Origin: Algibacter mikhailovii
GTDB taxonomy: Bacteria; Bacteroidota; Bacteroidia; Flavobacteriales; Flavobacteriaceae
Assembly (NCBI RefSeq): GCF_014651495.1
Contig: NZ_BMWZ01000001.1
Coordinates: 684,575 to 748,574, forward strand
Direction: 5' to 3'
DNA: 64,000 nucleotides
Positions 2,681 to 20,710 of the stretch are shown here, piece after piece. A program made the position numbers and the translations under genes. Position 1 is the stretch's first letter. The number at the start of each line of letters is the position of its first letter. Below the pieces are notes generated by a model, which worked only from the letters and a program-made list of their open reading frames with translations, did no database searches and had not been told where the DNA came from.

Positions 2681-2923
2681 TTACATTCCCTTAATAATTC
2701 CTATTTGCGCAAAACAATATTAATAAGGGTGCGATAATTAAGGCAGTCCAACCCTTCTAAGCACTAAAGAATGCCTTACCTTACACCTTCACTACTGCCC
2801 CATTTGGTGCTCTAAATACCATAATATGAAGGCCATGTCATAAGCTCTCAATATAATCCTTAGTCAAAGATGGCAAGCAGAAAACTATATTTATATTTGT
2901 TGAATCATAATGTTTACGCAATC

Positions 2924-4345
2924 ATGGAAAGTATCTCTGTTTTCGACATGCTAAAAATTGGCATTGGCCCGTCAAGTTCGCACACCTTAGGCCCATGGCG
3001 TGCTGCAGAACGTTGGATTACCGAATTGAAGGAAAGCAATCAATTTGAAAACATTGAAAGCATAAGCATTAATCTATATGGATCGTTGTCTTTAACAGGT
3101 AAAGGCCATGCTACAGACTACGCCCTGATGCTGGGATTATCTGGCGCTGATCCGGAACGCATTCCCACAGACCAAATAGAAGGTATTATTGATCGAATTA
3201 AACATGATCACTGTATTCTTCTAAACAATGAAAAACGGGTACCCTTCAACCCGAGTAGCCATATTATCTTCAATAAACAATTTCTCCCATATCACGCCAA
3301 CGGATTAACCTTTATTGGACATATAGGCAAGAAAACCATGGCATCTACTTTCTACTCCATTGGTGGTGGTTTTGTGGTAAAAGAAGATGCTAACAATGCC
3401 AAAAAGAATTTTGAGATTAAATGTTCCTTCCCCTATCCTATAGAACATGGTGACGATTTACTAAAATTCTGTAATAATCTAAATTCATCTATTTCTCAGG
3501 TGGTTTTAGAAAACGAAAAATCTATTCGGTCAAATCAAGACATTGATTTTGAGTTGAAACGTATTTGGGATACCATGTTAGAATCTATGTATGTTGGTTG
3601 CCATACTGAAGGCAAATTACCTGGTGGTCTAAATGTCACGCGACGCGCCTATAATATGCACCAAAACCTAAAAGGGAATACAGCCTATAGCACCCCTGTA
3701 GAATGGGTTTACGCCATTAGAGATACTGAAGTTAAATTTCGCCAAATCCTTAAATGGGTCAGTTGTTTTGCCTTAGCTGTTAATGAAGTGAATGCGGCCT
3801 TAGGCCGTGTAGTTACCGCTCCAACAAATGGTAGTGCTGGAGTTATACCATCCGTTTTAATGTACTATCTAGTGATTGAAAACCACGATGGTAATTTTGA
3901 AGACATCAAACGCTTTTTATTAACCGCCGGAGAAATAGGAAGCATCTTTAAAAAAGGGGCTACCATCAGTGCTGCCATGGGTGGCTGTCAAGCAGAAATA
4001 GGCGTATCTTCTGCGATGGCGGCAGGTGCTTTATGCGAACTTTTAGGTGGAACTCCTGAGCAGGTTTTAGTAGCAGCCGAAATCGCCATGGAACACCATT
4101 TAGGTCTAACCTGTGACCCTATTGGCGGCCTTGTTCAAATTCCTTGTATTGAACGCAATGCCATGGGCGCCATTAAAGCTATAAATGCCGCTGAGCTAGC
4201 GCTAGACACAAACCCCGAAAACGTAAAAGTCCCATTAGACAAAGTTGTAGCCACCATGTGGGAGACCGCAAAAGATATGCATTCCAAATACAAAGAAACT
4301 TCGGAAGGCGGCTTAGCGGTGGGCGTAAATTTAACAGATTGCTAG
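2924..4345 (+). CDS. sdaA: L-serine ammonia-lyase, iron-sulfur type, single chain
   Basis: Deaminates L-serine to pyruvate and ammonia using a [4Fe-4S] cluster. The start chosen here gives 473 residues beginning [21 protein letters not shown], the usual family start; an upstream ATG at 2870 would add 18 unrelated residues. The N-terminal beta domain (about 5-155) contains [14 protein letters not shown]. The catalytic alpha domain contains [12 protein letters not shown], and three cysteines at 355, 397 and 408 (GGCQAE, LTCDP, IPCIE). Their spacing of 42 and 11 residues equals that of the cluster cysteines known from the Legionella enzyme. Both domains are fused in one chain, as in type 2 enzymes. 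It is monocistronic, divergent from dnaK and convergent with the agarase gene. Confidence 0.95.
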
Positions 4346-4419
4346 ATAGACCTCTTTAAAGTTTTAAGATTAATTCATTTAGCGTTTATCGCTTTGAACT
4401 AACCTTACCTATCATGCTA

Positions 4420-5604
4420 TTATTCTATAACCAACTTTCCAGAGTACCAATTCCCTGAATGCAATTGGACTCTAATTAAATACATTCCAGATGATAAGGT
4501 ATCAACCGAAAGCGATTGTTGCTGTTTTGAAATATTTTTAACTGATTTGACTAATACCCCATTAATTTGATAAAGGTCAACTTGATTAATATCTGAATCC
4601 GAATCAATAGTTATGTGCTCGCCTCTTTTAATAGGATTATTAAAACCTAAAAACTTTGAAATATTATGGTCCTCTGTAGATAAAACATTCACTCTTTTGT
4701 AGGTTCTTATCCAGTCAATTTGAAAAATATTATTAGCTTCGACAGCCAATTCATTCACTGTAGGCCAAACGCCTCCGTTCACTTGCCACTGTTGTGCTGC
4801 TCCCGAAAAAATAATCGTTTCTGGACGAGATAATCCATTGCCTCCTAAATGTTCGTTAGGGTCTATAACACTAGGACCAGATACGGTTCTCACCAAAACG
4901 CCGTCAATATAATATTCTAAATGAAACGGATCTCTCCAATACATCCCTACTCTATGAAAACTATTTCTCCAATATTGACCATCTGCAACGGGTAAAACAT
5001 ACCAACTACCCGAATCTGTTGGCTGATAATCCTCACCACTTGATGAGAACGTGTGATGGCTTAAATGCATTCGCCTTGCAAACCAATCTCTAGAAGCGCC
5101 TTTACTTTCAGAGTAACTTGACCCATAGGCTTCAACAATATCGATTTCTTCTTTACTATTACTGCTTAGCAACCATACGGCATTGGCCATTACCGAATTC
5201 ATGATTTTCATTCTTGTCTCAATAAACACAGGATATATTATTTCAGACCTTGCATGAATGGCAGCAAAATTATTTGTGTTTAAAGCCCCGTTTAACGAGG
5301 TTGCTTTAAGTTCTAAGTTTCCTCCAGTGACTTTAGAATTATTGGGAGACCAGGTGGTATTTCCAAAACCAGGCCAAGGGTTTATAAAACCATCTTCCCA
5401 TCTTTCATTAAACGTAGTGCCCTTATTTGAACCTGATGGTGTTTCATAATTAAAACTGTCTGACAATTCATCTACTAACTCCCATTTTATATCAGAATTA
5501 CCTGATTCTGCAGGAATGGCTATTCCCGCCCAATCTTGAGCACCTGAAATCATCGTTGTTAAAAAACAAAATAAATAGCTGAATTGAATACAATACCTTT
5601 TCAT
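4420..5604 (-). CDS. GH16 beta-agarase with type IX sorting tail
   Basis: A secreted endo-hydrolase expected to cut beta-1,4 linkages in agarose from red algae. It has 394 residues: a signal peptide (about 1-22), then a GH16 catalytic domain opening with DWAGIAIPAESGNSDIKWEL and SDSFNY, which closely resembles characterised GH16_16 agarases. The catalytic motif is E153-I-D155-I-V-E158, and RMHLSHHTF follows as in agarases. The domain closes near residue 310 with IDWIRTYKRV. The last ~80 residues form a typical Por secretion-system sorting domain (INGVLVKSV, LSSGMYLIRV, KLVIE), so type IX export to the surface or medium is expected. No SusC/SusD or other agar-degradation genes are adjacent, which is unusual. 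Porphyranase or another GH16 specificity is less likely but not excluded. Confidence 0.88.
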   Translation of the reverse strand: MKRYCIQFSYLFCFLTTMISGAQDWAGIAIPAESGNSDIKWELVDELSDSFNYETPSGSNKGTTFNERWEDGFINPWPGFGNTTWSPNNSKVTGGNLELKATSLNGALNTNNFAAIHARSEIIYPVFIETRMKIMNSVMANAVWLLSSNSKEEIDIVEAYGSSYSESKGASRDWFARRMHLSHHTFSSSGEDYQPTDSGSWYVLPVADGQYWRNSFHRVGMYWRDPFHLEYYIDGVLVRTVSGPSVIDPNEHLGGNGLSRPETIIFSGAAQQWQVNGGVWPTVNELAVEANNIFQIDWIRTYKRVNVLSTEDHNISKFLGFNNPIKRGEHITIDSDSDINQVDLYQINGVLVKSVKNISKQQQSLSVDTLSSGMYLIRVQLHSGNWYSGKLVIE

Positions 5605-5757
5605 AGTTTTACATTAGGGGTGTTTACTTATACCTTCATAATTGGTATAATTTTAATCTCCAACAAACCTACAATTAATTGGACTTCTGATTTAAATAAT
5701 GAACTTGACAAAAACTTTACAGGTATGACAAAACCATGAAACAAAAGGCATTACACC

Positions 5758-5794
5758 TAAATCGCTAATTGGTATTATGTATTGTAGCGATTTA
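5758..5794. promoter_or_regulatory. 10-bp inverted repeat upstream of agarase gene
   Basis: TAAATCGCTA (5758-5767) and TAGCGATTTA (5785-5794) are perfect inverted repeats with a 17-nt spacer, about 155-190 bp upstream of the agarase start. A second, weaker repeat, TTATACC/GGTATAA (5628-5634 and 5644-5650), lies nearer the gene. There is no T-run, so a terminator is unlikely and an operator is possible. The rest of the 443-bp gap to panB shows no gene; an AT-rich stretch before panB probably holds its promoter. Confidence 0.4.
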
Positions 5795-6047
5795 TAAAAT
5801 GCATTAAATAAAGTAAAAATCAAGAACTACAATGCTCTATTACGTCCCTGAACAGCTCATATCATATGGAAAAAGTCCTGGTACTTTTTAAGTCCATATT
5901 AAAAGCGTTACACAAATTGTAATTGGGAGATGCCTAATTATTTTTTCCACGCGGGTAATATCAAATTGGTAAGATATGCCGTAAATAAAAGTTTAACACC
6001 ATAACTCTTAATTTAGTATTTTTACATGCTTAATTAAACTAAAAAAA

Positions 6048-6866
6048 ATGTCTGTAGCCAAAAAAGAATACAAACGCGTCACTGTTAAAACATTAGTAGA
6101 TATGAAAGCCAATGGCGAAAAGATATCTATGCTCACGGCCTATGATTACACCATGGCAAAAATTGTGGATGGCGCTGGTGTTGATGCTATTCTTGTTGGT
6201 GATTCTGCCAGTAATGTCATGGCTGGACATGAGACCACTTTACCAATAACCTTAGACCAGATGATATACCATGCATCATCGGTGGTACGTGCGGTATACC
6301 GTGCTTTGATTGTGGTAGACCTGCCTTTTGGTAGCTACCAAAGTGATCCTAAAGAAGCTTTACGCTCTGCTATTAGAATCATGAAAGAAAGCGGTGCACA
6401 CTCTGTAAAACTTGAAGGTGGTAAAGAAATTAAAGAATCTATTAAACGCATTTTAAATGCTGGAATTCCTGTAATGGGTCACTTGGGCTTAACACCACAA
6501 TCCATTTATAAATTTGGAACCTATACGGTACGTGCTAAACAAGAGGAAGAAGCTGAACGTCTTATTGAAGACGCAAAAATGCTAGAACGCATTGGATGCT
6601 TTGCTATTGTATTAGAAAAAATCCCTGCGGCACTAGCCAAAAAAGTTGCAGAAAGCGTGAGTATCCCTATTATTGGTATTGGTGCTGGTCCTGATGTTGA
6701 CGGACAGGTTTTGGTGCTTCATGACATGCTGGGCATGACGCATGAATTTAATCCACGGTTTCTACGCCGCTATTTACATCTGTATGAAGAAATGACAACA
6801 GGCATTTCAAAATACGTTGAAGATGTTAAGACGCAAGATTTTCCTAATGAAAGTGAGAAATATTAA
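6048..6866 (+). CDS. panB: 3-methyl-2-oxobutanoate hydroxymethyltransferase
   Basis: First committed step of pantothenate (coenzyme A) synthesis: transfers a hydroxymethyl group from 5,10-methylene-tetrahydrofolate to 2-oxoisovalerate to give ketopantoate. It has 272 residues in a TIM-barrel fold. Visible family motifs are [38 protein letters not shown] (metal and substrate contacts), [22 protein letters not shown] (catalytic Glu region) and [20 protein letters not shown]. The length is slightly above the usual 260-270. It is the first gene of a same-strand group with an RluA-type enzyme and an aldehyde dehydrogenase; the panB-rluA adjacency is common in Flavobacteriia and is interrupted here by a four-helix-bundle gene. 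Confidence 0.97.
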
Positions 6867-11693: not shown

Positions 11694-12494
11694 TTAATTT
11701 AACGGATAATCTAAAACCATTTCAACCCCGGTATCAGGTTTAGAATTTATTTGGAATTGCGCATGAATTAAAGCCGCTCTGCTTTCCATATTAATTAATC
11801 CAGAACCCTTGCTTTGCGTTTCTAGATCAAATCCTTTGCCATCATCTTTGGCGGTAATCATTAGAGATTCGGGACGGTAATCTAATACAATACTAATATT
11901 TTGAGCCTCAGAATATTTGACAGAGTTAGACAAAAATTCTTGAATAATTCTAAAGAGTATTATTTCATGTTTTCTATCGGAAAAAGGCACCGTATCACCT
12001 TGAATTATAAGCTCAGCCGACTTGAATTTCATCTTTTTTAAACGGTTCATTTCAGTTCTAATGGATGGTACAAAACCATTGTTCAATACAACCTCGTGAT
12101 TTAGCGTTCTAGATAAGGCCCTAACTTCAGCCAAACTTTCTTTTAAAGCTTCAGAGGTGTCCGCAAATTTTTCTTTAACCTCATCTTCAACATTCATTTT
12201 TAAAATACTGAGTTGCATACTAGCAAATGACAGCAACTGCCCAATATTGTCATGAAGCTCCCAACCAATATTTTTCAAGGTCTGCTCCTGGCTTTCTGTT
12301 TGTGCCTTTGCTATTTCGGCCTCAAAGGCCTTTTCTTGCGCTAAGCGTTCTTCTAATAATTTATTCTTACGTTTTTGAAACACCACAAAAAACACAATAA
12401 CCAGTGCCGTAATGACCACTAAAACCACGACCATATACACCAATAAATAACGCTCTGCGGCTGTACTCACTAATCGTTCTCCGGTCTGCACCAT
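11694..12494 (-). CDS. Sensor histidine kinase, NarL/LuxR-linked type
   Basis: A 266-residue membrane-anchored kinase with one strong TM helix (about 18-40) and a coiled-coil linker rich in Glu/Lys (about 41-75). The phospho-acceptor H-box ELHDNIGQLLSFA has His81. A GHKL ATPase domain carries N-box FLSNSVKYS (Asn190), DDGKGFD (217-223) and GSGL (230-233). This is the HisKA_3/HATPase arrangement whose partners are normally LuxR-type response regulators, but no regulator gene is adjacent. Its start lies 25 bp inside the upstream 7-TM gene, suggesting translational coupling. With almost no periplasmic domain, it probably senses through that partner or the membrane (inference). Confidence 0.9.
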   Translation of the reverse strand: MVQTGERLVSTAAERYLLVYMVVVLVVITALVIVFFVVFQKRKNKLLEERLAQEKAFEAEIAKAQTESQEQTLKNIGWELHDNIGQLLSFASMQLSILKMNVEDEVKEKFADTSEALKESLAEVRALSRTLNHEVVLNNGFVPSIRTEMNRLKKMKFKSAELIIQGDTVPFSDRKHEIILFRIIQEFLSNSVKYSEAQNISIVLDYRPESLMITAKDDGKGFDLETQSKGSGLINMESRAALIHAQFQINSKPDTGVEMVLDYPLN

Positions 12495-13186
12495 ATTAAA
12501 GCAAAGGTAAAGGTTAAATACATGATAACATTAGAAGAAAGATAAATTAGTCTTCTTACAAATACAAAATCTAAATCTTGATTCAACGTTTCTATATCAT
12601 AAACAAGATAAATATCAAAAAATACAATGGGTGTTATGATGAGCCACCAGATAAAAATGGCTGCACTAATATAAAAATTAATCGATTTATAAAAAGTTAA
12701 TATGGATGGGCTATTAAGAATTTCTAAAAAATAAAACGTGGTACACAAAAAAATAATGGCAGCACCAAAAACACTTATTGAAGGAAAAAATTTTATAAAA
12801 AAATCATTCCAATTGAAGACAATACAAACTAAAGCATACACAAAAAAAGAAATACCAGCAAACTTCACACCGTTTTTTAACCGCTTAGTTTTCAAAATTT
12901 TATAATAATAAAAACTAAAAAATAAAATGGCGCCAATTTTCCAATACACTGTTGTCCACCAATAATTTTTTTCAAGCCCAGTGCCTATTAAAAAATGTAA
13001 AAACCGGTCTGGATGCGCAAAATAAACATATACATTTAATAAATCGCAAATACTTAAATACCATAAAAACCAAATAAAGTATTTAGCGGGATAAGGTTTA
13101 AATTTAGAGTAAAAAAATAATCCTGTAAACGCCGCTAAAAACTCTACAAAATGTGTCGTAATAACATATAATACACCTATTTGCAT
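12470..13186 (-). CDS. Seven-TM membrane protein, kinase partner candidate
   Basis: A 238-residue integral membrane protein with about seven hydrophobic segments, e.g. VEFLAAFTGLFFYS, YFIWFLWYLSICDLLNVYVYF, IGAILFFSFYYY, ISFFVYALVCIVF, VFGAAIIFLCTTFYFL, IFIWWLIITPIVFF and NVIMYLTFTFALIW. It is rich in aromatic residues and has no enzyme motif I recognise. The stop overlaps the start of the histidine kinase gene, and a small anchored protein precedes it by 30 bp. The order suggests that the 7-TM protein provides the input for the kinase, like split 7TM-kinase sensors, but this is inference from position only. Confidence 0.75.
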   Translation of the reverse strand: MQIGVLYVITTHFVEFLAAFTGLFFYSKFKPYPAKYFIWFLWYLSICDLLNVYVYFAHPDRFLHFLIGTGLEKNYWWTTVYWKIGAILFFSFYYYKILKTKRLKNGVKFAGISFFVYALVCIVFNWNDFFIKFFPSISVFGAAIIFLCTTFYFLEILNSPSILTFYKSINFYISAAIFIWWLIITPIVFFDIYLVYDIETLNQDLDFVFVRRLIYLSSNVIMYLTFTFALIWCRPEND

Positions 13187-13216
13187 AACTACATTATTAC
13201 TTTAAATAAACTTTTT

Positions 13217-13753
13217 TCATGGGTAACCTCCACTTCCTGTGCCTTCATTTAAAGGTGGTATATTAGGTACTTGAAGACTCATTAGAGGGAAACTACTGGC
13301 TTCAGCGGTAAGTTTATGGCCTTTAGGCGCTATAAACATGGTGGTGTAATTCGCTTTCTTTTTTGGTGCTTTTTTGCCATACACCCCAAGATAGACATAA
13401 ATACTATCCATTGCATAGCCTTGATTTTCAGATTCCGCCTCTGCCCAGTTAAGATAATCTCTAATGTCTTTAACTGCCCAGCCAACAGAACGCCTGTCTA
13501 TAGCTCTGCCTTCTTTCTTAGAAGCCGAGTCTACCGCTTTTTTTCTAAATTTGGTCCAGTTGTCATTTAATGCTATGGCCTCTTTAACAGTAATCACGCC
13601 TCGAGGTTTAACAAGCGCTGGTGCTTCCTGTGCTTCAATGCCTTTTTCCGCAGCGGTTTCTGTAGCCTCAGAATCCTCTGGGCGCGGACAAAAATAATAG
13701 GTTAAAAGGGCTCCAACAGCAAAACCTAAAATAATGTAAGGTAATTTTTTCAT
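13217..13753 (-). CDS. Membrane-anchored protein of unknown function
   Basis: 178 residues. An N-terminal helix (LPYIILGFAVGALLTYYF) ends in CPRP, followed by a short Glu/Ala-rich linker. A soluble domain then has ITVKEAIALNDNWTKFRKKAVDSA and a Tyr/Trp-containing middle part, and the tail is Pro/Gly-rich (NIPPLNEGTGSGGYP). The protein is probably exposed to the periplasm or cytoplasm through one anchor. I do not recognise the family. It is the first gene of a tight three-gene group with the 7-TM protein and the histidine kinase, so a role in the same signalling unit is plausible. Confidence 0.7.
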   Translation of the reverse strand: MKKLPYIILGFAVGALLTYYFCPRPEDSEATETAAEKGIEAQEAPALVKPRGVITVKEAIALNDNWTKFRKKAVDSASKKEGRAIDRRSVGWAVKDIRDYLNWAEAESENQGYAMDSIYVYLGVYGKKAPKKKANYTTMFIAPKGHKLTAEASSFPLMSLQVPNIPPLNEGTGSGGYP

Positions 13754-13822
13754 GGTTAATTGGGTTTAGTTATAGGACAACTAATATAGTATTTTTTTTT
13801 ATTGTAAGAATACATTCAAACC

Positions 13823-14449
13823 TTAAGAAGGAAAACCTAGCATATCCCCCATACCAACCGTAAATAGCCAACAGCCATAAATAGCATGTTCTATAGTGAC
13901 CAATAGCGTTGATTTTGTGTTTTGATAGGTTAAAGCAAATACAATACCGCCTAAAAAAGTAAGCACTAAAACCAACATGTTTTTAAAAAACAAATGCGCA
14001 AGTGCAAACAAAAAGGCATTCAATACCACATATAAAACCTTATTTTCAACAAGATTGGGATACCTTTTAAAATAAAACGTTCTATATAATAGTTCTTGGG
14101 GATATACAGAAAACACACTATAAACAAACACTATAAACACCCATAATTTGGGCTTATTAACCAGCACATTAAAAAGTAAGTCTTTATTGGCATCCCAAAC
14201 AAATGCTGTGGTTATTGCGGCGATTATTATAAATTTAATGCAGACCGACTTCACAAAGGGCATCCAATGGATCCGCTTTGCTATTTTAAAGGGTAGTTTT
14301 TCTACTGCGGTTATCACATAGATTACATAAACAAATCCTAAAACACCTACCGCCAATTTAACCCAAGGCGAATAGTTAAAAACAAAGCTTATAGGAATGA
14401 TTACAAAAATAATAAGGCACTCTAGGTTTTTGTATTTGAGTGTATTCAT
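13823..14449 (-). CDS. CPBP-family intramembrane metalloprotease
   Basis: 208 residues with about six to seven TM segments. The family motifs are Q118-E119-L-L-Y-R123 (normally EExxxR), FALAH with His152, and the last motif EHAIYG with His188. These residues bind the catalytic metal in CAAX-protease/bacteriocin-processing (CPBP, Abi) proteins. The first Glu of motif 1 is replaced by Gln, so activity is not certain, although the second Glu is usually the more important. The start MNTLKYKN was chosen because it lies one base past the stop of the upstream AsnC-type gene; an earlier ATG would overlap that gene. Possible roles are prenyl-type protease, immunity or peptide processing. Confidence 0.82.
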   Translation of the reverse strand: MNTLKYKNLECLIIFVIIPISFVFNYSPWVKLAVGVLGFVYVIYVITAVEKLPFKIAKRIHWMPFVKSVCIKFIIIAAITTAFVWDANKDLLFNVLVNKPKLWVFIVFVYSVFSVYPQELLYRTFYFKRYPNLVENKVLYVVLNAFLFALAHLFFKNMLVLVLTFLGGIVFALTYQNTKSTLLVTIEHAIYGCWLFTVGMGDMLGFPS

Positions 14450-14450
14450 A

Positions 14451-14909
14451 TTATAATGTAATAGCGGTGTCATGTTTTACTTCGTTAATCACAAACATAC
14501 TTTGGGTACTCCCAATATGATTAATGGTGGTGAGCCGTTCAACCATAAAGGTTCTAAAAGCAGCCATATCTTTAACTATAACTTTGAGTAAATAATCATA
14601 TTCACCACTAACATGATAACATTCTAAGACCTCGCTAATTTTATTCACTTCCTTTTCAAAACTAATCACAAAATCTTGACTATGTTTTACCAGTTTTATA
14701 TGACAAAACACCACAAAATTCCTGTCTATTTTTTCTTTGTTAACGATGGCTATATAACCATCTATAAACCCTGCTTTTTCTAACTTTTTTATACGTTCAT
14801 AAACAGCCGTAACAGAAAGTTCTAACTTATTTGAAAGTTCTTTATTGGTTTGCTTACTGTCCTGTTGTAAATAGGCCAACAACTTTTTATCAGTGGAATC
14901 AAATATCAT
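14451..14909 (-). CDS. Lrp/AsnC family transcriptional regulator
   Basis: A 152-residue DNA-binding regulator that responds to amino acids. An N-terminal winged HTH (TDKKLLAYLQQDSKQTNKELSNKLELSVTAVYERIKKLEKAGFI, residues 6-49) is followed by a RAM ligand-binding domain (about 65-140; VSGEYDYLLKVIV is its core). Proteins of this family assemble into octamers. It is followed directly by the CPBP gene. Upstream, a 48-bp element that also stands before the methionine gamma-lyase-like gene is followed by a decayed copy of the start of that enzyme. The regulator probably controls the lyase, and possibly itself, from these sites (inference). Confidence 0.93.
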   Translation of the reverse strand: MIFDSTDKKLLAYLQQDSKQTNKELSNKLELSVTAVYERIKKLEKAGFIDGYIAIVNKEKIDRNFVVFCHIKLVKHSQDFVISFEKEVNKISEVLECYHVSGEYDYLLKVIVKDMAAFRTFMVERLTTINHIGSTQSMFVINEVKHDTAITL

Positions 14910-14983
14910 AATTGTTTTTTTGTATGCTGAGACTTCATCAAAGGAAAATTACAATTTTAAATCTAAAGAAATTTACAAATGCC

Positions 14984-15031
14984 GTTTTATTTTCTACGAT
15001 AAACAATTATAACTGATTAATATTCAACTTA
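14984..15031. promoter_or_regulatory. 48-bp element, copy 1 (upstream of AsnC-type gene)
   Basis: Runs from GTTTTATTTTCTAC to GATTAATATTCAACTTA. It matches the 48 bp at 16773-16820 at 39 of 48 positions without gaps, and its ends are nearly identical. It lies 75 bp upstream of the divergently read AsnC-type gene. It is probably the ancestral operator/promoter region between the regulator and a lyase gene. Confidence 0.7.
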
Positions 15032-15035
15032 CAAT

Positions 15036-15165
15036 ACATTTAAAATCAAATCCAACATTTGCAGTACTTTGATGAATCTGCCAGTTTTAACTGCTCCATA
15101 TCTAATTTATAAACCCAAACCCTTTTTTATGAGCTAAACCTTGTTTAACCGTTTAAAAAAGGCCT
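15036..15165 (+). pseudogene. Decayed 5' fragment of methionine gamma-lyase-like gene
   Basis: After the 48-bp element, the DNA resembles the start of the intact lyase gene at 16857. TTTAAAATCAAATCCAACAT corresponds to its codons 3-9. After a short deletion, 15062-15117 matches 16893-16948 at about 39 of 56 positions. In frame this reads QYFDESASFNCSISNL and then a stop, against QYFGEFGGVNPSISDS in the intact enzyme. The start codon is lost, there is a frameshift, and similarity fades before the porin gene. I read this as a dead N-terminal remnant of a duplicated gene. Confidence 0.65.
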
Positions 15166-15187
15166 TGTATAAAACAACTTTAGCGTT

Positions 15188-16420
15188 TTAAAAATAGAAC
15201 ATCAAGCCAAAACTTATACGCATGGCATCTCTTTTTTTAGTCAAAACCAATTGGTTATCATTTACTGTACCATCAATATCTAATTTTTTGGTACCAAAAT
15301 CAAGCTCCAAACCATAGGTCATTCTGGTAAAATGATCGTACATAATATTAACAATCCCATAGGTATGCACATGGTTTATATTGCCGTTAAGCACAACGGT
15401 ATCAACATCCTCTATTTGAGCTACCAATACTCTAGAAACATCATCTGTAAAGAATCTAGTATATCCCAGCACAAGGTTTGTGTGTAATTTGGGGGTCCAA
15501 AAATGCTCATAAGCCATCCAGCCACCATAAGAAGGTGTTGCATCTAATTCTCCATTAATTGTAGGGAACCCATCATAGCCAAAACCTGCTATACTAGTAA
15601 TATATGAGGTTATCCCTTTTCCTACAGTGCCTTGGAATTGAAAATTATTTTGTGCTTTAGCCAGTCTACCAGAAAAAGAGAGGCCATATCCAAAAAATGA
15701 ACTTTTCTCACTATCGTACTCGTAATTGATATGTCTAAAAATAGTTGCCATTCTTAAATGGCCCCAATTTTTTTCATGTTTAATTCCTAAAATTAGGTCG
15801 GGGGTGGTTTGATACGCATCCCCAATCAATGGTTCTATCTCATCATATCTATTATAATCTGTTATTGGAGCGTCTAATGCAATTATATAGCGCCAATTGG
15901 GATTGCTCCCAAGGGTATTGAAATATTTAATATGCGGGCTACGCACCCAAACCCCAGAAGGTGGGCCTTCCCATTCTAATATATTTGGCCATAGTGCTTC
16001 ATCTCCAAAAGAGGCCCAACCCTGACCTATTTGCCAATGATTGAATTCTACATAGGCTTTTCTTAACCGCATTTTGCCGTTACCACCCCAAAAGTCAAAC
16101 TCAACAACCGCATAAATATCATCTCCATTTTTAGTGACTATGGTAGATTCAAATTTCATTTGTGTTTGATACATATCTACTTTGAAACTATCAGAATCAT
16201 CAGTGCCAAATACATTTATGGCGCCTACATTAAAGGTTTCACTATCCTGTAAGCCCCCATAAACATCATAATACCCGTTTAATTTTATGTTAGCACCAAA
16301 ACTGCCTTTAAATTGAGCCTGTCCATTTATAGAATCTTTTGAGGCAAAGGTTAAGATCCGCTCTTGACTATATACGCCTGTAAAAAATAAACCTAAAAGG
16401 AAAAGAATAGGATGTTTCAT
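15188..16420 (-). CDS. DcaP-like outer-membrane porin
   Basis: A 410-residue outer-membrane beta-barrel with a signal peptide (MKHPILFLLGLFFTGVYSQ). The start was set at MKHPIL because the six residues before it do not belong to a signal peptide. The barrel is rich in amphipathic strands and ends in SFGLMFYF with a terminal Phe, as barrel-assembly substrates do. Blocks such as AVVEFDFWGGNGKMRLRKAYVEF, WQIGQGWASFGD and WVRSPHIKYF are typical of DcaP-type trimeric porins, which take up dicarboxylates, aromatic acids or other small anions. It is a single gene, lying between the decayed and intact copies of the lyase gene start, so it or its region may have been inserted there. Confidence 0.82.
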   Translation of the reverse strand: MKHPILFLLGLFFTGVYSQERILTFASKDSINGQAQFKGSFGANIKLNGYYDVYGGLQDSETFNVGAINVFGTDDSDSFKVDMYQTQMKFESTIVTKNGDDIYAVVEFDFWGGNGKMRLRKAYVEFNHWQIGQGWASFGDEALWPNILEWEGPPSGVWVRSPHIKYFNTLGSNPNWRYIIALDAPITDYNRYDEIEPLIGDAYQTTPDLILGIKHEKNWGHLRMATIFRHINYEYDSEKSSFFGYGLSFSGRLAKAQNNFQFQGTVGKGITSYITSIAGFGYDGFPTINGELDATPSYGGWMAYEHFWTPKLHTNLVLGYTRFFTDDVSRVLVAQIEDVDTVVLNGNINHVHTYGIVNIMYDHFTRMTYGLELDFGTKKLDIDGTVNDNQLVLTKKRDAMRISFGLMFYF

Positions 16421-16438
16421 AACTATAATTTTAATCAA

Positions 16439-16772
16439 ATTTTAGGCGAACTACACCAATTAAAACCGTTGTTTTATAAAAAGCAAACAACACAATATGT
16501 ATTCCCCAAATAACAAAAACACTGCGCTTAATGATATCCTTAAATTTTCATTATTAGCACATTAAAAAGGTACGTCTTATTAATAAACCAAACAAGATTG
16601 TTCTATCATCGAACAAAATTTATTTAATAATTGTCTTTATTAAAGCGTTCCACATCCATATTCTAGACCCTTTTATAGATAGAATCACACCCCATAAAAG
16701 GAACATTTTTCATCAGCAAGGGCCTTATTGGAGCCATATCAGATATTAAATCTAAATTTAATAATAAATTCA
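16439..16772. other. Intergenic region without recognised gene
   Basis: The 334 bp between the porin gene and the 48-bp element are AT-rich. No ORF with family resemblance, RNA gene or hairpin terminator was seen. The promoter of the porin gene is expected at its left end. Confidence 0.5.
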
Positions 16773-16820
16773 GTTTTATTTTCTACAATATAGGATTTGT
16801 ATTGATTAATATTCAATTTA
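16773..16820. promoter_or_regulatory. 48-bp element, copy 2 (upstream of lyase gene)
   Basis: GTTTTATTTTCTAC to GATTAATATTCAATTTA, 36 bp upstream of the lyase start codon. It matches copy 1 at 39 of 48 positions. It is a candidate binding site for the AsnC-type regulator at 14451-14909. Confidence 0.65.
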
Positions 16821-16856
16821 TCACGAATTTTGAATAGCATAAACACAATAGATACC

Positions 16857-18083
16857 ATGGCTTTTAAACCCGCAAACAACATACAAGATTTACAATACTT
16901 TGGTGAATTTGGAGGTGTCAACCCGTCCATTTCTGATTCTTCAACCTATACCTTTCTATCAGCAAAAACAATGTTTGATACCTTTGAAGGCAATGCCGAC
17001 GGTTGTTATTTATACTCGCGGCACTCCTCACCTTCCAATCTGTATCTTGGTGAAGCTTTAGCAGCCATGGAAGGCACAGAAACAGCTAATGTTTCAGCTT
17101 CAGGTATGGGGGCTATTACTCCAGTAATTTTACAACTATGCGGTGCAGGAGATCATATTATTTCTAGTCGAACCATTTATGGCGGTACCTATGCGTTTTT
17201 GAAAAACTTTACGCCAAAATTTAATATCCACACCAATTTTGTGGATATTACTAAATTGGATTTAGTTGAAGCATTAATTACCGACCGGACTAAAATCATT
17301 TATTGTGAATCTGTGAGTAATCCGCTTCTAGAAGTTGCCGATATTAAGGCCTTGGCAGAAATAGCAAAAAAGCACAACTTAAAACTGGTGGTAGACAATA
17401 CGTTTTCTCCCCTTTCCATTTCTCCAGCGGTATGGGGTGCTGATGTGGTGATACACAGTTTGACTAAATTCATAAATGGAACTAGTGATACCGTTGGTGG
17501 CGTAGCATGCGGTACCCAAGACTTTATCAATGCACTGCGCAATGTGAATGATGGTGCATCCATGCTTTTAGGTTCAACCATGGATAGTTTAAGAGCAGCT
17601 TCTGTTTTAAAAAATTTAAGAACCTTACATATTAGAATGCAACAGCATAGTAAAAATGCCATGTTTCTAGCTAAAAAGTTTGAATCAGATGGCTTAAAAA
17701 CGGTGTATCCAGGGCTTCCATCACACCCTTCACATACACTCTTTAAGCGCATGATGAATGAAGCCTATGGTTTTGGAGGCATGCTAACTATTGATGTGGG
17801 CAGCTTAGACAAAGCCAATGAACTCATGGAAATGATGCAGGATAAAAACTTAGGATATCTTGCGGTGAGTTTGGGTTTTTACAAAACCTTATTTAGCGCA
17901 CCAGGAAGTTCTACATCTTCTGAAATCCCTAAAGAAGAGCAACAAGACATGGGATTAACTGATGGGCTTATCCGTTTTTCCATAGGTCTAGATGCCGATA
18001 TTGAACGTACCTATAACACCATAAAATCCTGTATGCTAAGCATAGGTGTTTTAAAAGAAACTATGGCATCTCATGTACAATAA
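16857..18083 (+). CDS. PLP-dependent Cys/Met metabolism enzyme, likely methionine gamma-lyase
   Basis: A 408-residue fold-type I PLP enzyme of the Cys/Met metabolism family. Visible signatures are the substrate/PLP contacts YSRHSSPSNLYLGEALAAMEGTE, SASGMGAI, YGGTYAFL, VVDNTFSPL, and HSLTKFINGTSDTVGG with PLP-binding Lys204. Reactions in this family include methionine gamma-lyase, cystathionine gamma-lyase or beta-lyase, and O-acylhomoserine sulfhydrylase; sequence alone does not settle the choice. An AsnC-type regulator nearby and its shared upstream element favour a catabolic gamma-lyase. The start at 16857 was chosen because the family alignment begins at MAFKPANN; an earlier ATG adds nine unrelated residues. 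It is monocistronic. Confidence 0.85.
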   Translation: MAFKPANNIQDLQYFGEFGGVNPSISDSSTYTFLSAKTMFDTFEGNADGCYLYSRHSSPSNLYLGEALAAMEGTETANVSASGMGAITPVILQLCGAGDHIISSRTIYGGTYAFLKNFTPKFNIHTNFVDITKLDLVEALITDRTKIIYCESVSNPLLEVADIKALAEIAKKHNLKLVVDNTFSPLSISPAVWGADVVIHSLTKFINGTSDTVGGVACGTQDFINALRNVNDGASMLLGSTMDSLRAASVLKNLRTLHIRMQQHSKNAMFLAKKFESDGLKTVYPGLPSHPSHTLFKRMMNEAYGFGGMLTIDVGSLDKANELMEMMQDKNLGYLAVSLGFYKTLFSAPGSSTSSEIPKEEQQDMGLTDGLIRFSIGLDADIERTYNTIKSCMLSIGVLKETMASHVQ

Positions 18084-18126
18084 AAAAACCTGCAAAAGGT
18101 ATTGGATAGCTTGTACATAACTCACG

Positions 18127-19149
18127 TTAAATACCTTTTATCCGCTTCCAAAGTGTGGCCAGAGCATCACTAAGTTTACCAAATTTGGGCTTAAAAGGTT
18201 TCATATTCAATCTCTCCTTTTCTTTATAAAGGATAAGACTAAATACCGATGAATCTGGGTCATTTAAATCTAAAAGCGGGTAGCGTAAATCATTATAGCG
18301 ATAGGTCTCGTCATCCAATTTATAAACACTGTAGTAATCATTACTAAACCAAGCAAGATTTGCAACATCTTCAAATTCAGCTGGCTTTAAATCACGATGT
18401 TTGGCTACTTTAGTAAATGTTGAAAACTTTGTATCGGTATCAAATAAGGAATAATCTGCTACATAATAACTGTTTGCAGTTTCCGCAATGCCATACCACA
18501 ATATGTTATTAAAAATAGAAGGCTGTGCACTAAACCGGATATAATCTATTTGACTGTCTTCGGCTGATGATTTAAATAAGGCGTCAATATAGAGTTTGTT
18601 TCCTACCGTAAAAAGCATATACAGCGAACTCATAGTCAGCCCCAATTTTAACCAAATTTTCCGCTTAGGTGATGTCCTATTAAAAAACATCACGGCAATC
18701 ATACAGATTAAAAAAGGCAACGTATATAAAGGATCTACAACGGCTATATTATTAAATGCCACTCTATAATGACTTATAGGCGCAAATAACTGGGTGCCAT
18801 AGGGTGTAAAACAATCCAATATGGGATGGGTAAAAAGCGACCAAAAAAACAGGGCAATCCAATCCTGCCTTGTGGTATTACCCCGCCTCTGCCGTGTATT
18901 GTATAATCTATGCACCACCCAACCAAGTAACAAAGCTGCAATAACAGAAAAGAATATGGAGTGCATAAATCCACGATGAAAAAGCATGGCATCAATGGCA
19001 TTACCATATAACAAATTCCCCACATAGACATCTAAGTCCGGTATGGTTCCCCCAATAGCACCAAATAGTAATGCCTTATTTCCTATTTTCTTTCCTAAAA
19101 CCGCTTCTCCACAAGCCGCGCCTAGAACAATTTGGGTTATTGAATCCAT
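18127..19149 (-). CDS. YdjM-type membrane-bound metal-dependent hydrolase
   Basis: A 340-residue protein. The N-terminal half is the YdjM/LexA-binding hydrolase fold: MDSITQIVLGAACGEAVLGKKIGNKALL, GTIPDLDV, FHRGFMHS and HPILDCFTPYGTQLFAP, whose His and Asp residues are the expected metal ligands. About four to five TM segments follow. The C-terminal ~140 residues form a soluble domain with no motif that I recognise. Members are inner-membrane proteins related to phospholipase C/zinc hydrolases; their physiological substrate is unknown. It is divergent from nhaC, with a 94-bp promoter region between them. Confidence 0.9.
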   Translation of the reverse strand: MDSITQIVLGAACGEAVLGKKIGNKALLFGAIGGTIPDLDVYVGNLLYGNAIDAMLFHRGFMHSIFFSVIAALLLGWVVHRLYNTRQRRGNTTRQDWIALFFWSLFTHPILDCFTPYGTQLFAPISHYRVAFNNIAVVDPLYTLPFLICMIAVMFFNRTSPKRKIWLKLGLTMSSLYMLFTVGNKLYIDALFKSSAEDSQIDYIRFSAQPSIFNNILWYGIAETANSYYVADYSLFDTDTKFSTFTKVAKHRDLKPAEFEDVANLAWFSNDYYSVYKLDDETYRYNDLRYPLLDLNDPDSSVFSLILYKEKERLNMKPFKPKFGKLSDALATLWKRIKGI

Positions 19150-19243
19150 CCTTGATTTTTGATGAGCAGCAAAAGTAAGGAACTATTTTCATTTGCATAC
19201 ATTGCTTGAAAATCGTAACATTACGAGACCAATTTATTTCTAA

Positions 19244-20710
19244 ATGCAAGATCAAAAGAATATTTCTGAGTTCAAGGCTAATCAACAAACTATTATTGAA
19301 AATAAAGCGCTTAGTTTCTCAGAAGCCCTATTGCCAGTTGTCTTATTAATGGGCCTCCTATTTTACAATATCATGTTTGCTGAGGGTGCTTTATTAGGCG
19401 ATTATTCCAATCAATTTATTTTACTCATTGGTGGTGCCATAGCAGCGGTTGTAGGTTTTTATAATAAAGTACCGCTAACCCTCATGGGTTCTGAAATCTG
19501 GGAAAACTTAAAAAGCGTTTTTATTCCCATACTCATTTTGTGCTTAGTTGGCGCCTTGGGTGGTACTTGGTTGGTTAGTGGCGTTATTCCGGCCATGGTT
19601 TATTATGGCCTTCAAGTGTTAAGTCCGGAGATATTTCTGCCAGCATCGGTTATCATCTCTGCTATCATTTCAATCGCAACAGGTAGTTCATGGACCACAT
19701 CGGCCACCGTAGGTATTGCGCTTATTGGTATTGGGAATGCTTTAGGTATTAATCCCGGTATGATTGCTGGAGCAGTAATATCTGGGGCTTATTTTGGCGA
19801 CAAAATGTCTCCTTTAAGTGATACTACAAACCTGGCTCCTGCAATGGCTGGCACCGATTTATTTAGCCATATCAAATACATGACCATTACTACGGTTCCA
19901 ACGATACTGGTAACCTTGGTGGTTTTTTCTGTTTTAAGCTTTACCATTGACACCTCAGGCAGTGCAGATTTAAGTCATTTATTAGACACCATAGATGCCA
20001 CTTTTAATATTTCACCTTGGTTGTTTTTAGTCCCCCTATGCGTGATTGGTTTAATTCTTTTAAAAACGAAACCACTTTTAGCCTTAAGTGCGGGTGTTCT
20101 ATTGGCAGCTCTATTCGCTTTTATTTTTCAACCTGAGATTTTAAATGCTTTAGGAGATTCCCAATTATCTGCTGTAATAACATCCATTTTTACAGATACC
20201 CAAATAACTACAGATAATGAAAAACTGAATGATTTGTTTGCCGCTGGCGGCATAAAGGGCATGCTTTGGACCATCCTTTTAATTATTTGCGCTATGGTTT
20301 TCGGCGGTATTATGGATGGTATTGGTGCCCTTTCTAGAATCACAAGCGCGCTATTGGCTGTAGCCTCTTCTGTTTTTGGATTATTTGCTAGTACTGTAAT
20401 TAGCTGTTTAGGACTAAACGCTATTGCTTCCGATCAATATTTAGCTATTGTTATCCCAGGTAAAATGTTTAAAAAAGCCTATGAAGATAAAGGCCTAGCC
20501 CCAGAAAACTTAAGTAGAACCCTTGAAGATTCAGGAACTGTTACTTCTGTATTAATTCCTTGGAATACCTGTGGAGCCTACCAGTCTGGCGTATTAGGCG
20601 TAGATGTGGGCGAGTATTTTATTTATGCCATATTCAATTGGTTGAGTCCTTTTACAACCTTATTATTTGCCGCCTTACGAATCAAAATCAAACTCATAGT
20701 ATCAAAATAG
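19244..20710 (+). CDS. nhaC: Na+/H+ antiporter NhaC family
   Basis: A 488-residue polytopic inner-membrane antiporter expected to exchange Na+ for H+ and thereby support pH and sodium homeostasis in a marine cell. It has about 11-12 hydrophobic segments. Family motifs are AIISIATGSSWTTSATVGIALIGIG, ISGAYFGDKMSPLSDTTNLAPAMAGTDLFSHI (the conserved GDKxSPLSDTTNLAP block) and LEDSGTVTSVLIPWNTCGAYQSGVLGV near the C-terminus. Some relatives in this family are amino acid or malate-lactate antiporters, so the substrate is likely but not certain. A single gene that precedes the sigma-54 activator by 87 bp on the same strand. Confidence 0.93.
   Translation: MQDQKNISEFKANQQTIIENKALSFSEALLPVVLLMGLLFYNIMFAEGALLGDYSNQFILLIGGAIAAVVGFYNKVPLTLMGSEIWENLKSVFIPILILCLVGALGGTWLVSGVIPAMVYYGLQVLSPEIFLPASVIISAIISIATGSSWTTSATVGIALIGIGNALGINPGMIAGAVISGAYFGDKMSPLSDTTNLAPAMAGTDLFSHIKYMTITTVPTILVTLVVFSVLSFTIDTSGSADLSHLLDTIDATFNISPWLFLVPLCVIGLILLKTKPLLALSAGVLLAALFAFIFQPEILNALGDSQLSAVITSIFTDTQITTDNEKLNDLFAAGGIKGMLWTILLIICAMVFGGIMDGIGALSRITSALLAVASSVFGLFASTVISCLGLNAIASDQYLAIVIPGKMFKKAYEDKGLAPENLSRTLEDSGTVTSVLIPWNTCGAYQSGVLGVDVGEYFIYAIFNWLSPFTTLLFAALRIKIKLIVSK

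Follow-up and report, generated by a model that had tools for sequence, protein, structure and literature searches.

The window analyzed here is a stretch of 64,000 nucleotides (nt) from the 4.44 Mb genome of the marine bacterium Algibacter mikhailovii (contig NZ_BMWZ01000001.1). Its central feature is a gene for an AsnC/Lrp-type regulator (asnC) and a gene for a Cys/Met-metabolism pyridoxal phosphate (PLP) enzyme, hereafter the lyase, which are separated by a DcaP-like porin gene and whose regulatory region occurs on both sides of that porin. From left to right, a CPBP-type protease gene (minus strand) is followed by asnC (minus), a dead lyase start, the porin gene (minus) and the intact lyase gene (plus).

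The regulator carries the Pfam domains AsnC_trans_reg (E 3.3e-22) and HTH_24 (E 6.2e-15), both above their gathering scores. The lyase is a member of the Cys/Met-metabolism PLP superfamily (Pfam PF01053, E 6.7e-97), with methionine gamma-lyases as its best PDB matches (E 9.2e-73). It misses the cut-off of the methionine gamma-lyase equivalog TIGR01328 (NCBIfam; 293.7 vs 549.7 bits), so it is described here as methionine gamma-lyase-like, methionine gamma-lyases being its closest solved relatives. Its nearest named relatives belong to the Flavobacteriaceae, including Algibacter, Hanstruepera, Flavivirga and Psychroserpens. The porin matches the DcaP-like PDB chain 6eus (E 1.9e-5) over residues 35-173, about one third of its length, and just misses the Pfam gathering score of the DcaP porin family PF19577 (24.5 vs 27 bits). 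The features of the locus are as follows.

14451-14909, minus strand: intact gene for an AsnC/Lrp-type regulator, 152 aa (Pfam domains)
14951-15027, no strand: predicted operator copy A, with sites at 14951-14965, 14982-14996 and 15013-15027 (31-bp spacing)
15032-15165, plus strand: dead lyase start of copy A (alignment, profile and conserved-column count)
15188-16420, minus strand: DcaP-like porin gene, 410 aa, probably inserted (PDB 6eus, Pfam DcaP)
16421-16667, no strand: stretch 5' of the porin (upstream comparison)
16668-16695, minus strand: probable dead asnC start of copy B, start codon plus ~8 codons (profile edge and CAT position)
16740-16816, no strand: predicted operator copy B, with sites at 16740-16754, 16771-16785 and 16802-16816
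16857-18083, plus strand: intact gene for the Cys/Met-metabolism PLP enzyme ("lyase"), methionine gamma-lyase-like (PF01053 and PDB)

A duplicated regulatory region beside the regulator gene

A first-pass annotation of this DNA, made from its letters, described a 48-bp element and the first ~35 lyase codons as present twice, once intact and once decayed, with the start lost and a stop gained. The duplicated lyase-start region beside the regulator is a real observation, borne out by shuffle test, alignment and profile search. The longest direct repeat listed for window positions 12000-20000 is a 93-nt pair (14954-15046 and 16743-16835), and the 48-bp element itself (14984-15031 and 16773-16820) is identical at 39/48 positions. 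Aligned locally with gaps, the two regions reach a score of 66, compared with a maximum of 37 among 2000 pairs of dinucleotide-preserving shuffles. When the genome was searched with the intact region, it returned that region, then the remnant (E 3.8e-10) and, as the next place, a match at only E 0.10; the same search found no operator copy elsewhere in the genome that could be the source of the duplication.

The similarity survives not only gapped alignment, as the annotation had asked, but also profile search. A DNA profile of 97 relatives, spanning the end of asnC, the intergenic region and the lyase start and leaving the window out, matches the 64 kb at 14458-15146 (E 8.7e-120) and 16668-17259 (E 7.9e-157), with the next match at E 0.016. 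Since the first match takes in the intact asnC and the second the intact lyase, the E-values do not measure the remnants by themselves. With an intergenic-only profile, the lyase-side copy (copy B) reaches E 1.9e-17 and the asnC-side copy (copy A) E 2.8e-5, followed by a next match at E 0.0094. It is extremely improbable that no duplication took place and that a look-alike AsnC-regulated promoter in the porin region merely adjoins lyase-like codons by chance. AT-rich regulatory DNA does yield spurious profile matches up to about 12 bits, but the shuffle test, an in-phase match over 24 codons, the profile E-values and the identical geometry of the two copies contradict this explanation.

The repeat is more extensive than first described. 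It runs from the asnC start through the shared regulatory region to lyase codon ~41, rather than from 14984 to codon ~35. Over the whole region, A and B are identical at 72/123 aligned positions, no closer than regions of different genera. A still longer duplication, beginning in the CPBP gene, was considered and rejected: the candidate pair (14163-14202 and 16556-16595) covers 40 nt at 73% ungapped identity, like other listed chance pairs.

Copy A consists of the intact asnC, the regulatory region and then ~41 decayed lyase codons. Within this stub, positions 15050-15121 align ungapped to 16881-16952 (IQHLQYFDESASFNCSISNL*TQT vs IQDLQYFGEFGGVNPSISDSSTYT), and its lesions comprise a deletion of the start codon and ~8 codons, a stop at about codon 29 and, beyond it, small indels. 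Over lyase codons 1-41, copy A keeps 54/89 conserved columns and copy B 89/89. Changes hardly seen in relatives number 6, 6 and 2 at codon positions 1, 2 and 3 of the 24-codon stub, with none in B, a pattern that fits decay without selection.

Copy B probably carries the reciprocal remnant, a dead asnC start. Its similarity to relatives covers the asnC leader, the asnC start codon and the next ~8 codons of asnC: the profile match starts at 16668, 11/15 conserved asnC columns are kept in a fitted alignment, and a CAT lies 80 nt from the conserved box, compared with 79 in relatives. The asnC coding columns alone give no profile match in copy B, and no dead asnC was found there beyond these ~8 codons.

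Operator array and promoter geometry

The intergenic region of relatives contains three conserved 15-bp half-palindromes (TAG/TTG ... CTA/CAA) at an exact spacing of 31 bp, and the 48-bp element corresponds to sites 2 and 3 of this three-site array. After 100 relatives were aligned on site 2 and 15 dropped, CTA was counted at its expected place in the first, second and third site in 56, 66 and 56 of the remaining 85, compared with a mean of 0.97 at other positions; site 2 served as the anchor, which leaves the counts at sites 1 and 3 as the independent ones. As a yardstick not trained on these data, the published E. coli Lrp consensus was taken from an excerpt of PMC5554404. Across spacings of 15-45 bp in 100 relatives, it scores best at 31 bp (34.7 vs 32.5 for the next spacing and 30.7 for shuffled sequences). 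Applied as 31-bp triples to 63,923 window positions, it places 16740 (copy B) first, with 14951 (copy A) tied at ranks 4-8.

A profile of 88 relatives scores copy B at 48.8 and copy A at 36.5 bits, and nothing else in the 64 kb exceeds 5.3. Copy A outscores 22/88 relatives, themselves scored leave-one-out, and it is recognized as a half-palindrome array with the relatives' profile but not with the E. coli consensus. Between A and B, identity is higher in the sites (39/45) than in the spacers (18/32; p 0.004), which fits a working array in A. Copy A is likely still used, because asnC has no other upstream region. A match to an Lrp/AsnC-type operator array adds weight to the initial suggestion of an AsnC site in the 48-bp element, and the AsnC protein of the window may bind both arrays.

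The distances around the array are fixed in relatives. The distance from the asnC start to the conserved box is 79 nt (94/97 relatives within 3), and 29 nt separate the box from the -33 TTG in 96/97, despite a spacer sequence that is not conserved; an alignment-free recount gives 81/100 for each distance. Both copies in the window keep this layout, at 77/29 in A and 80/29 in B. Three of the four longest-gap relatives have the box in place and their extra length between promoter and lyase, and in the fourth the box was not recognized.

In copy B, site 3 begins at the -33 TTG of the lyase promoter. Copy B also has a relaxed -33/-7 pair upstream of the lyase, which is missing from A, where the -7 box is lost; the strict flavobacterial form TAnnTTTG, as excerpted from PMC9723704, has no exact match in copy B either. 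Upstream of the porin, there is no convincing flavobacterial -33/-7 pair, and comparison with the upstream regions of 14 porin homologues gave no clear similarity (scores 16-25, without a shuffle control). The porin is separated from the asnC-facing arm of copy B by 272 bp and the asnC stub.

Gene order in relatives

The annotation had proposed that the lyase was once divergent from the AsnC-type gene, a proposal to which relatives lend strong agreement. In 78/80 named loci, asnC and the lyase are divergent, their starts lie 130-288 bp apart and no porin intervenes; the two exceptions are L109, which starts inside the lyase, and L132, where the lyase is present without an AsnC-like gene in the flanks examined. 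A second set of 29 loci shows the pair in 27, including G001, the one other genome of this genus in the comparison, with a 162-bp gap, the exceptions being L027 (from G006) and L033 (from G027). Family-wide, the lyase is matched in 276/397 genomes and AsnC in 256/397, and pairing used only the matches listed. Among these, 122 genomes have both genes, and in 120 of them the gap does not exceed 450 bp (median 166). The other two are the window, where the pair is still divergent but 1950 bp apart with the porin in between, and G006, where 3354 bp hold other cargo. A further batch of 80 genomes yielded 78 gaps of 151-304 bp and two cases with the genes on different contigs. These genome sets overlap with the named loci, and counts are not additive across collections. 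Among the 202 genomes paired, only the window and G006 have genes between asnC and the lyase.

Several other loci depart from the common arrangement. G027 (L136) has the lyase and no AsnC match at E 1e-45. G423 contains two AsnC relatives of similar strength (G423:C25:248-703 and G423:C116:1611-2063), one beside the lyase and the other on another contig. Gaps of 418 bp in G397 (L137) and 426 bp in G375 (L138) reflect ~200-250 extra bases near the lyase start; both were rejected as further duplication cases, as neither has a second full region and the two profile matches overlap by ~20-27 model positions.

In G006, an independent insertion lies between asnC and the lyase (locus L135, G006:C2:1500-12000, positions 2859-6215). 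Its cargo comprises three genes, for a flavin-dependent oxidoreductase, a second Cys/Met PLP enzyme and an OsmC-like protein, and an oxidoreductase of this type is rare (5/79 genomes). The cargo is flanked on either side by the regulatory region in the same 31-bp layout, with array scores of 24.4 bits beside asnC, where site 2 is degenerate, and 48.0 beside the lyase. The corresponding profile matches have E-values of 3e-11 and 6.7e-19, and a spurious reverse-strand match of 12.3 bits represents AT-rich background. Across 98 loci searched with the intergenic profile, only G006 has two matches at E <=1e-3. Both genomes found with genes between the pair carry the whole array twice. The simplest reading, drawn from two cases only, is survivorship, in which an insertion is retained if both genes keep a complete array.

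History of the locus and known counterparts

At E 1e-20, the porin is matched in 19/397 family genomes and not in G001, and its closest homologues (74-76%) are found in another genus. In the neighbourhoods seen, porin homologues adjoin unrelated genes, and within 1.5-kb flanks no other porin neighbours asnC or the lyase. Trees pair the window with G001 for the lyase, YdjM and CPBP genes, with Shimodaira-Hasegawa-like approximate likelihood ratio test (SH-aLRT) values of 97, 99 and 90, respectively, so the locus is native. Since the porin is patchy in distribution and absent from G001, it was probably acquired, by horizontal transfer.

We consider it highly probable that the porin was inserted together with a duplication of the whole asnC-lyase regulatory region, with each gene keeping one array. 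The ancestor would have had asnC and the lyase diverging from a shared region of ~165 bp with three 15-bp sites 31 bp apart, and with the -33 box of the lyase promoter at site 3. After the split from G001, the porin gene would have arrived from elsewhere in an event that left the entire region, plus the first codons of both genes, on each side of it. Because the region is present on both porin flanks, each intact gene would have kept a full operator, copy A serving asnC and copy B the lyase. The useless halves would then have decayed, namely, in A, the lyase start with its promoter and, in B, probably the asnC start. AsnC is predicted to bind array A for its own control and array B for that of the lyase, acting at two promoters that were formerly one region; binding, the sensed amino acid and the sign of control are proposed by family analogy, as presented in excerpts of PMC8707732. 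The annotation invoked an insertion or a duplication to move the lyase, and the evidence points to both at once. Its overall interpretation is supported, in that the outline of its history is right, although it overlooked the probable dead asnC start in copy B.

The ancestral order, the duplication, the operator geometry and the decay can be read from sequence comparison; binding of both arrays by AsnC, horizontal acquisition of the porin and the route are inferred. A tandem duplication as the first event, with the porin coming later, seems slightly less likely than integration of a circle by a single crossover or than additive recombination. The insert is bounded by direct copies of a homologous target, as Campbell-type (single-crossover) integration predicts; such bounds also arise from tandem duplication and are therefore not decisive. 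No donor joining the porin to a target segment was found, the porin neighbourhoods being covered over 1.5-kb flanks. In a two-step history with the same outcome, the asnC-lyase unit would have been duplicated in tandem, and the porin would later have replaced the end of the first lyase and the end of the second asnC. Such a deletion would leave dead stubs like those observed, and tandem duplications made by transformation are documented in Streptococcus pneumoniae, according to excerpts of PMC3784515. However, no trace of either gene's middle is found between 15165 and 16668 (no profile match at E up to 1), and two events are needed, and needed again in G006. The two-step history is possible, but we lean against it. 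No transposase was seen, the porin being the only open reading frame of at least 80 aa that starts or ends within 15165-16668; shorter frames were not searched for transposase families.

The porin could also have brought one copy with it from another species, either A with asnC or B with the lyase, and the divergence between A and B would then be that between donor and host. The A-B likeness, only that of different genera, is in keeping with such an import, as is the AsnC tree, which weakly separates the window from G001. On the other hand, the lyase, YdjM and CPBP genes lie on both sides and pair with G001, and a grouping of AsnC with G001 is not rejected (approximately unbiased test, p 0.11). 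Moreover, over the 42 element columns compared, B is the nearest match to A (34/42, next 31), and the other porins lack an asnC or lyase neighbour in their flanks. Import of one copy is quite unlikely. The AsnC tree was set aside as a guide to the native copy, as its conflict with G001 is too weak.

Several results weigh against a porin insertion coupled to duplication of a region that is still in use. The porin has an ordinary composition (G+C 0.365 vs 0.363 for the window), and the tree of AsnC proteins gives no clear pairing of the window with G001. A tree that might tell the native copy was tried and rejected because the regulatory region evolves too fast (end branch of copy A 2.67). A weak point concerns the dead asnC start, for which the asnC columns plus 27 nt of leader in copy B give 4.4 bits, equalled by 1/1000 shuffles. 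Array A alone is unexceptional against the E. coli consensus, its score being reached by 84/1000 shuffles. Its retention beyond plain decay is not proven, whether its 6/45 site differences are set against 12/48 at codon positions 1+2 of the stub (p 0.19) or the A element is set against the lyase columns (p 0.10).

The lyase genes of the window and G001 differ at 97/152 fourfold sites, and a hand Jukes-Cantor calculation roughly places the loss of stub function at ~0.4 of the time since the G001 split. Separately, an NhaC-type antiporter gene two genes past the lyase (window 19244-20710) shows 64% identity to the same-position gene in G001 and 79-85% to those of other genera. As it is closer to other genera than to G001, it may have been exchanged.

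A bolder proposal is that, whenever foreign genes settle between asnC and the lyase, the rigid array is duplicated in one piece, since both original genes need the whole wrapped array, and that insertion thereby recruits newcomers into an amino-acid regulon, twice independently among about 200 genomes. We regard this as unlikely. If true, the asnC-facing arm of copy B would be a spare AsnC-controlled promoter toward the porin, the lyase-facing arm of copy 1 in G006 would point at the operon of flavin oxidoreductase, PLP enzyme and OsmC-type genes, and acquired genes would join an existing amino-acid regulon in one step.

The locus offers a modest result for the evolution of regulation and not a new kind of system. 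It provides a dated natural example of a gene that probably entered a shared divergent promoter with neither original gene disconnected, the control region being duplicated alongside. It also reveals an operator layout in Flavobacteriaceae, unnamed in the literature searched, in which three 15-bp sites follow one another at 31 bp and the 79/29-nt geometry is fixed; with the layout defined, an AsnC-type regulon becomes searchable and binding directly testable. Literature searches, with subscription papers mostly outside their reach, returned nothing to the point on an AsnC-lyase pair in flavobacteria or on insertion into divergent promoters with duplication.

The pair has the features of a divergent local Lrp/AsnC system, namely a helix-turn-helix with a ligand-binding domain, conserved divergence in relatives and 15-bp sites in helical register. 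A comparable arrangement is MdeR and the mde operon of Pseudomonas putida, in which a local Lrp/AsnC-type regulator is divergent from a sulfur amino-acid catabolism gene; excerpts of PMC8707732 list MdeR among divergent local regulators and describe it as affected by L-methionine. Unlike the MdeR system, which belongs to another phylum, the window has its pair split by a porin and its regulatory region present twice, and its lyase does not reach the equivalog score for methionine gamma-lyase. In Sulfolobales, the Lrp-type regulator BarR and its divergent aminotransferase gene also share a region with regular 15-bp half-palindromic sites. In the excerpted text of PMC10201364, the spacers of Sa- and St-BarR measure 15-17 bp and are likened to those of E. 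coli AsnC, and the DNA is thought to wrap around an octamer. The spacer in the window is 16 bp, and the predicted array resembles the pattern described for AsnC-type octamers. BarR is archaeal, with binding observed by electrophoretic mobility shift assay and atomic force microscopy, whereas the array in the window is predicted from sequence. Finally, an inserted gene bounded by a direct repeat recalls variable genome segments with direct repeats and additive integration. Excerpts of PMC2884548 report repeats at about 10% of such segments and discuss homology-assisted illegitimate recombination. Unlike in those segments, the repeat in the window is the promoter and operator of a divergent pair, and both copies likely still serve a gene.

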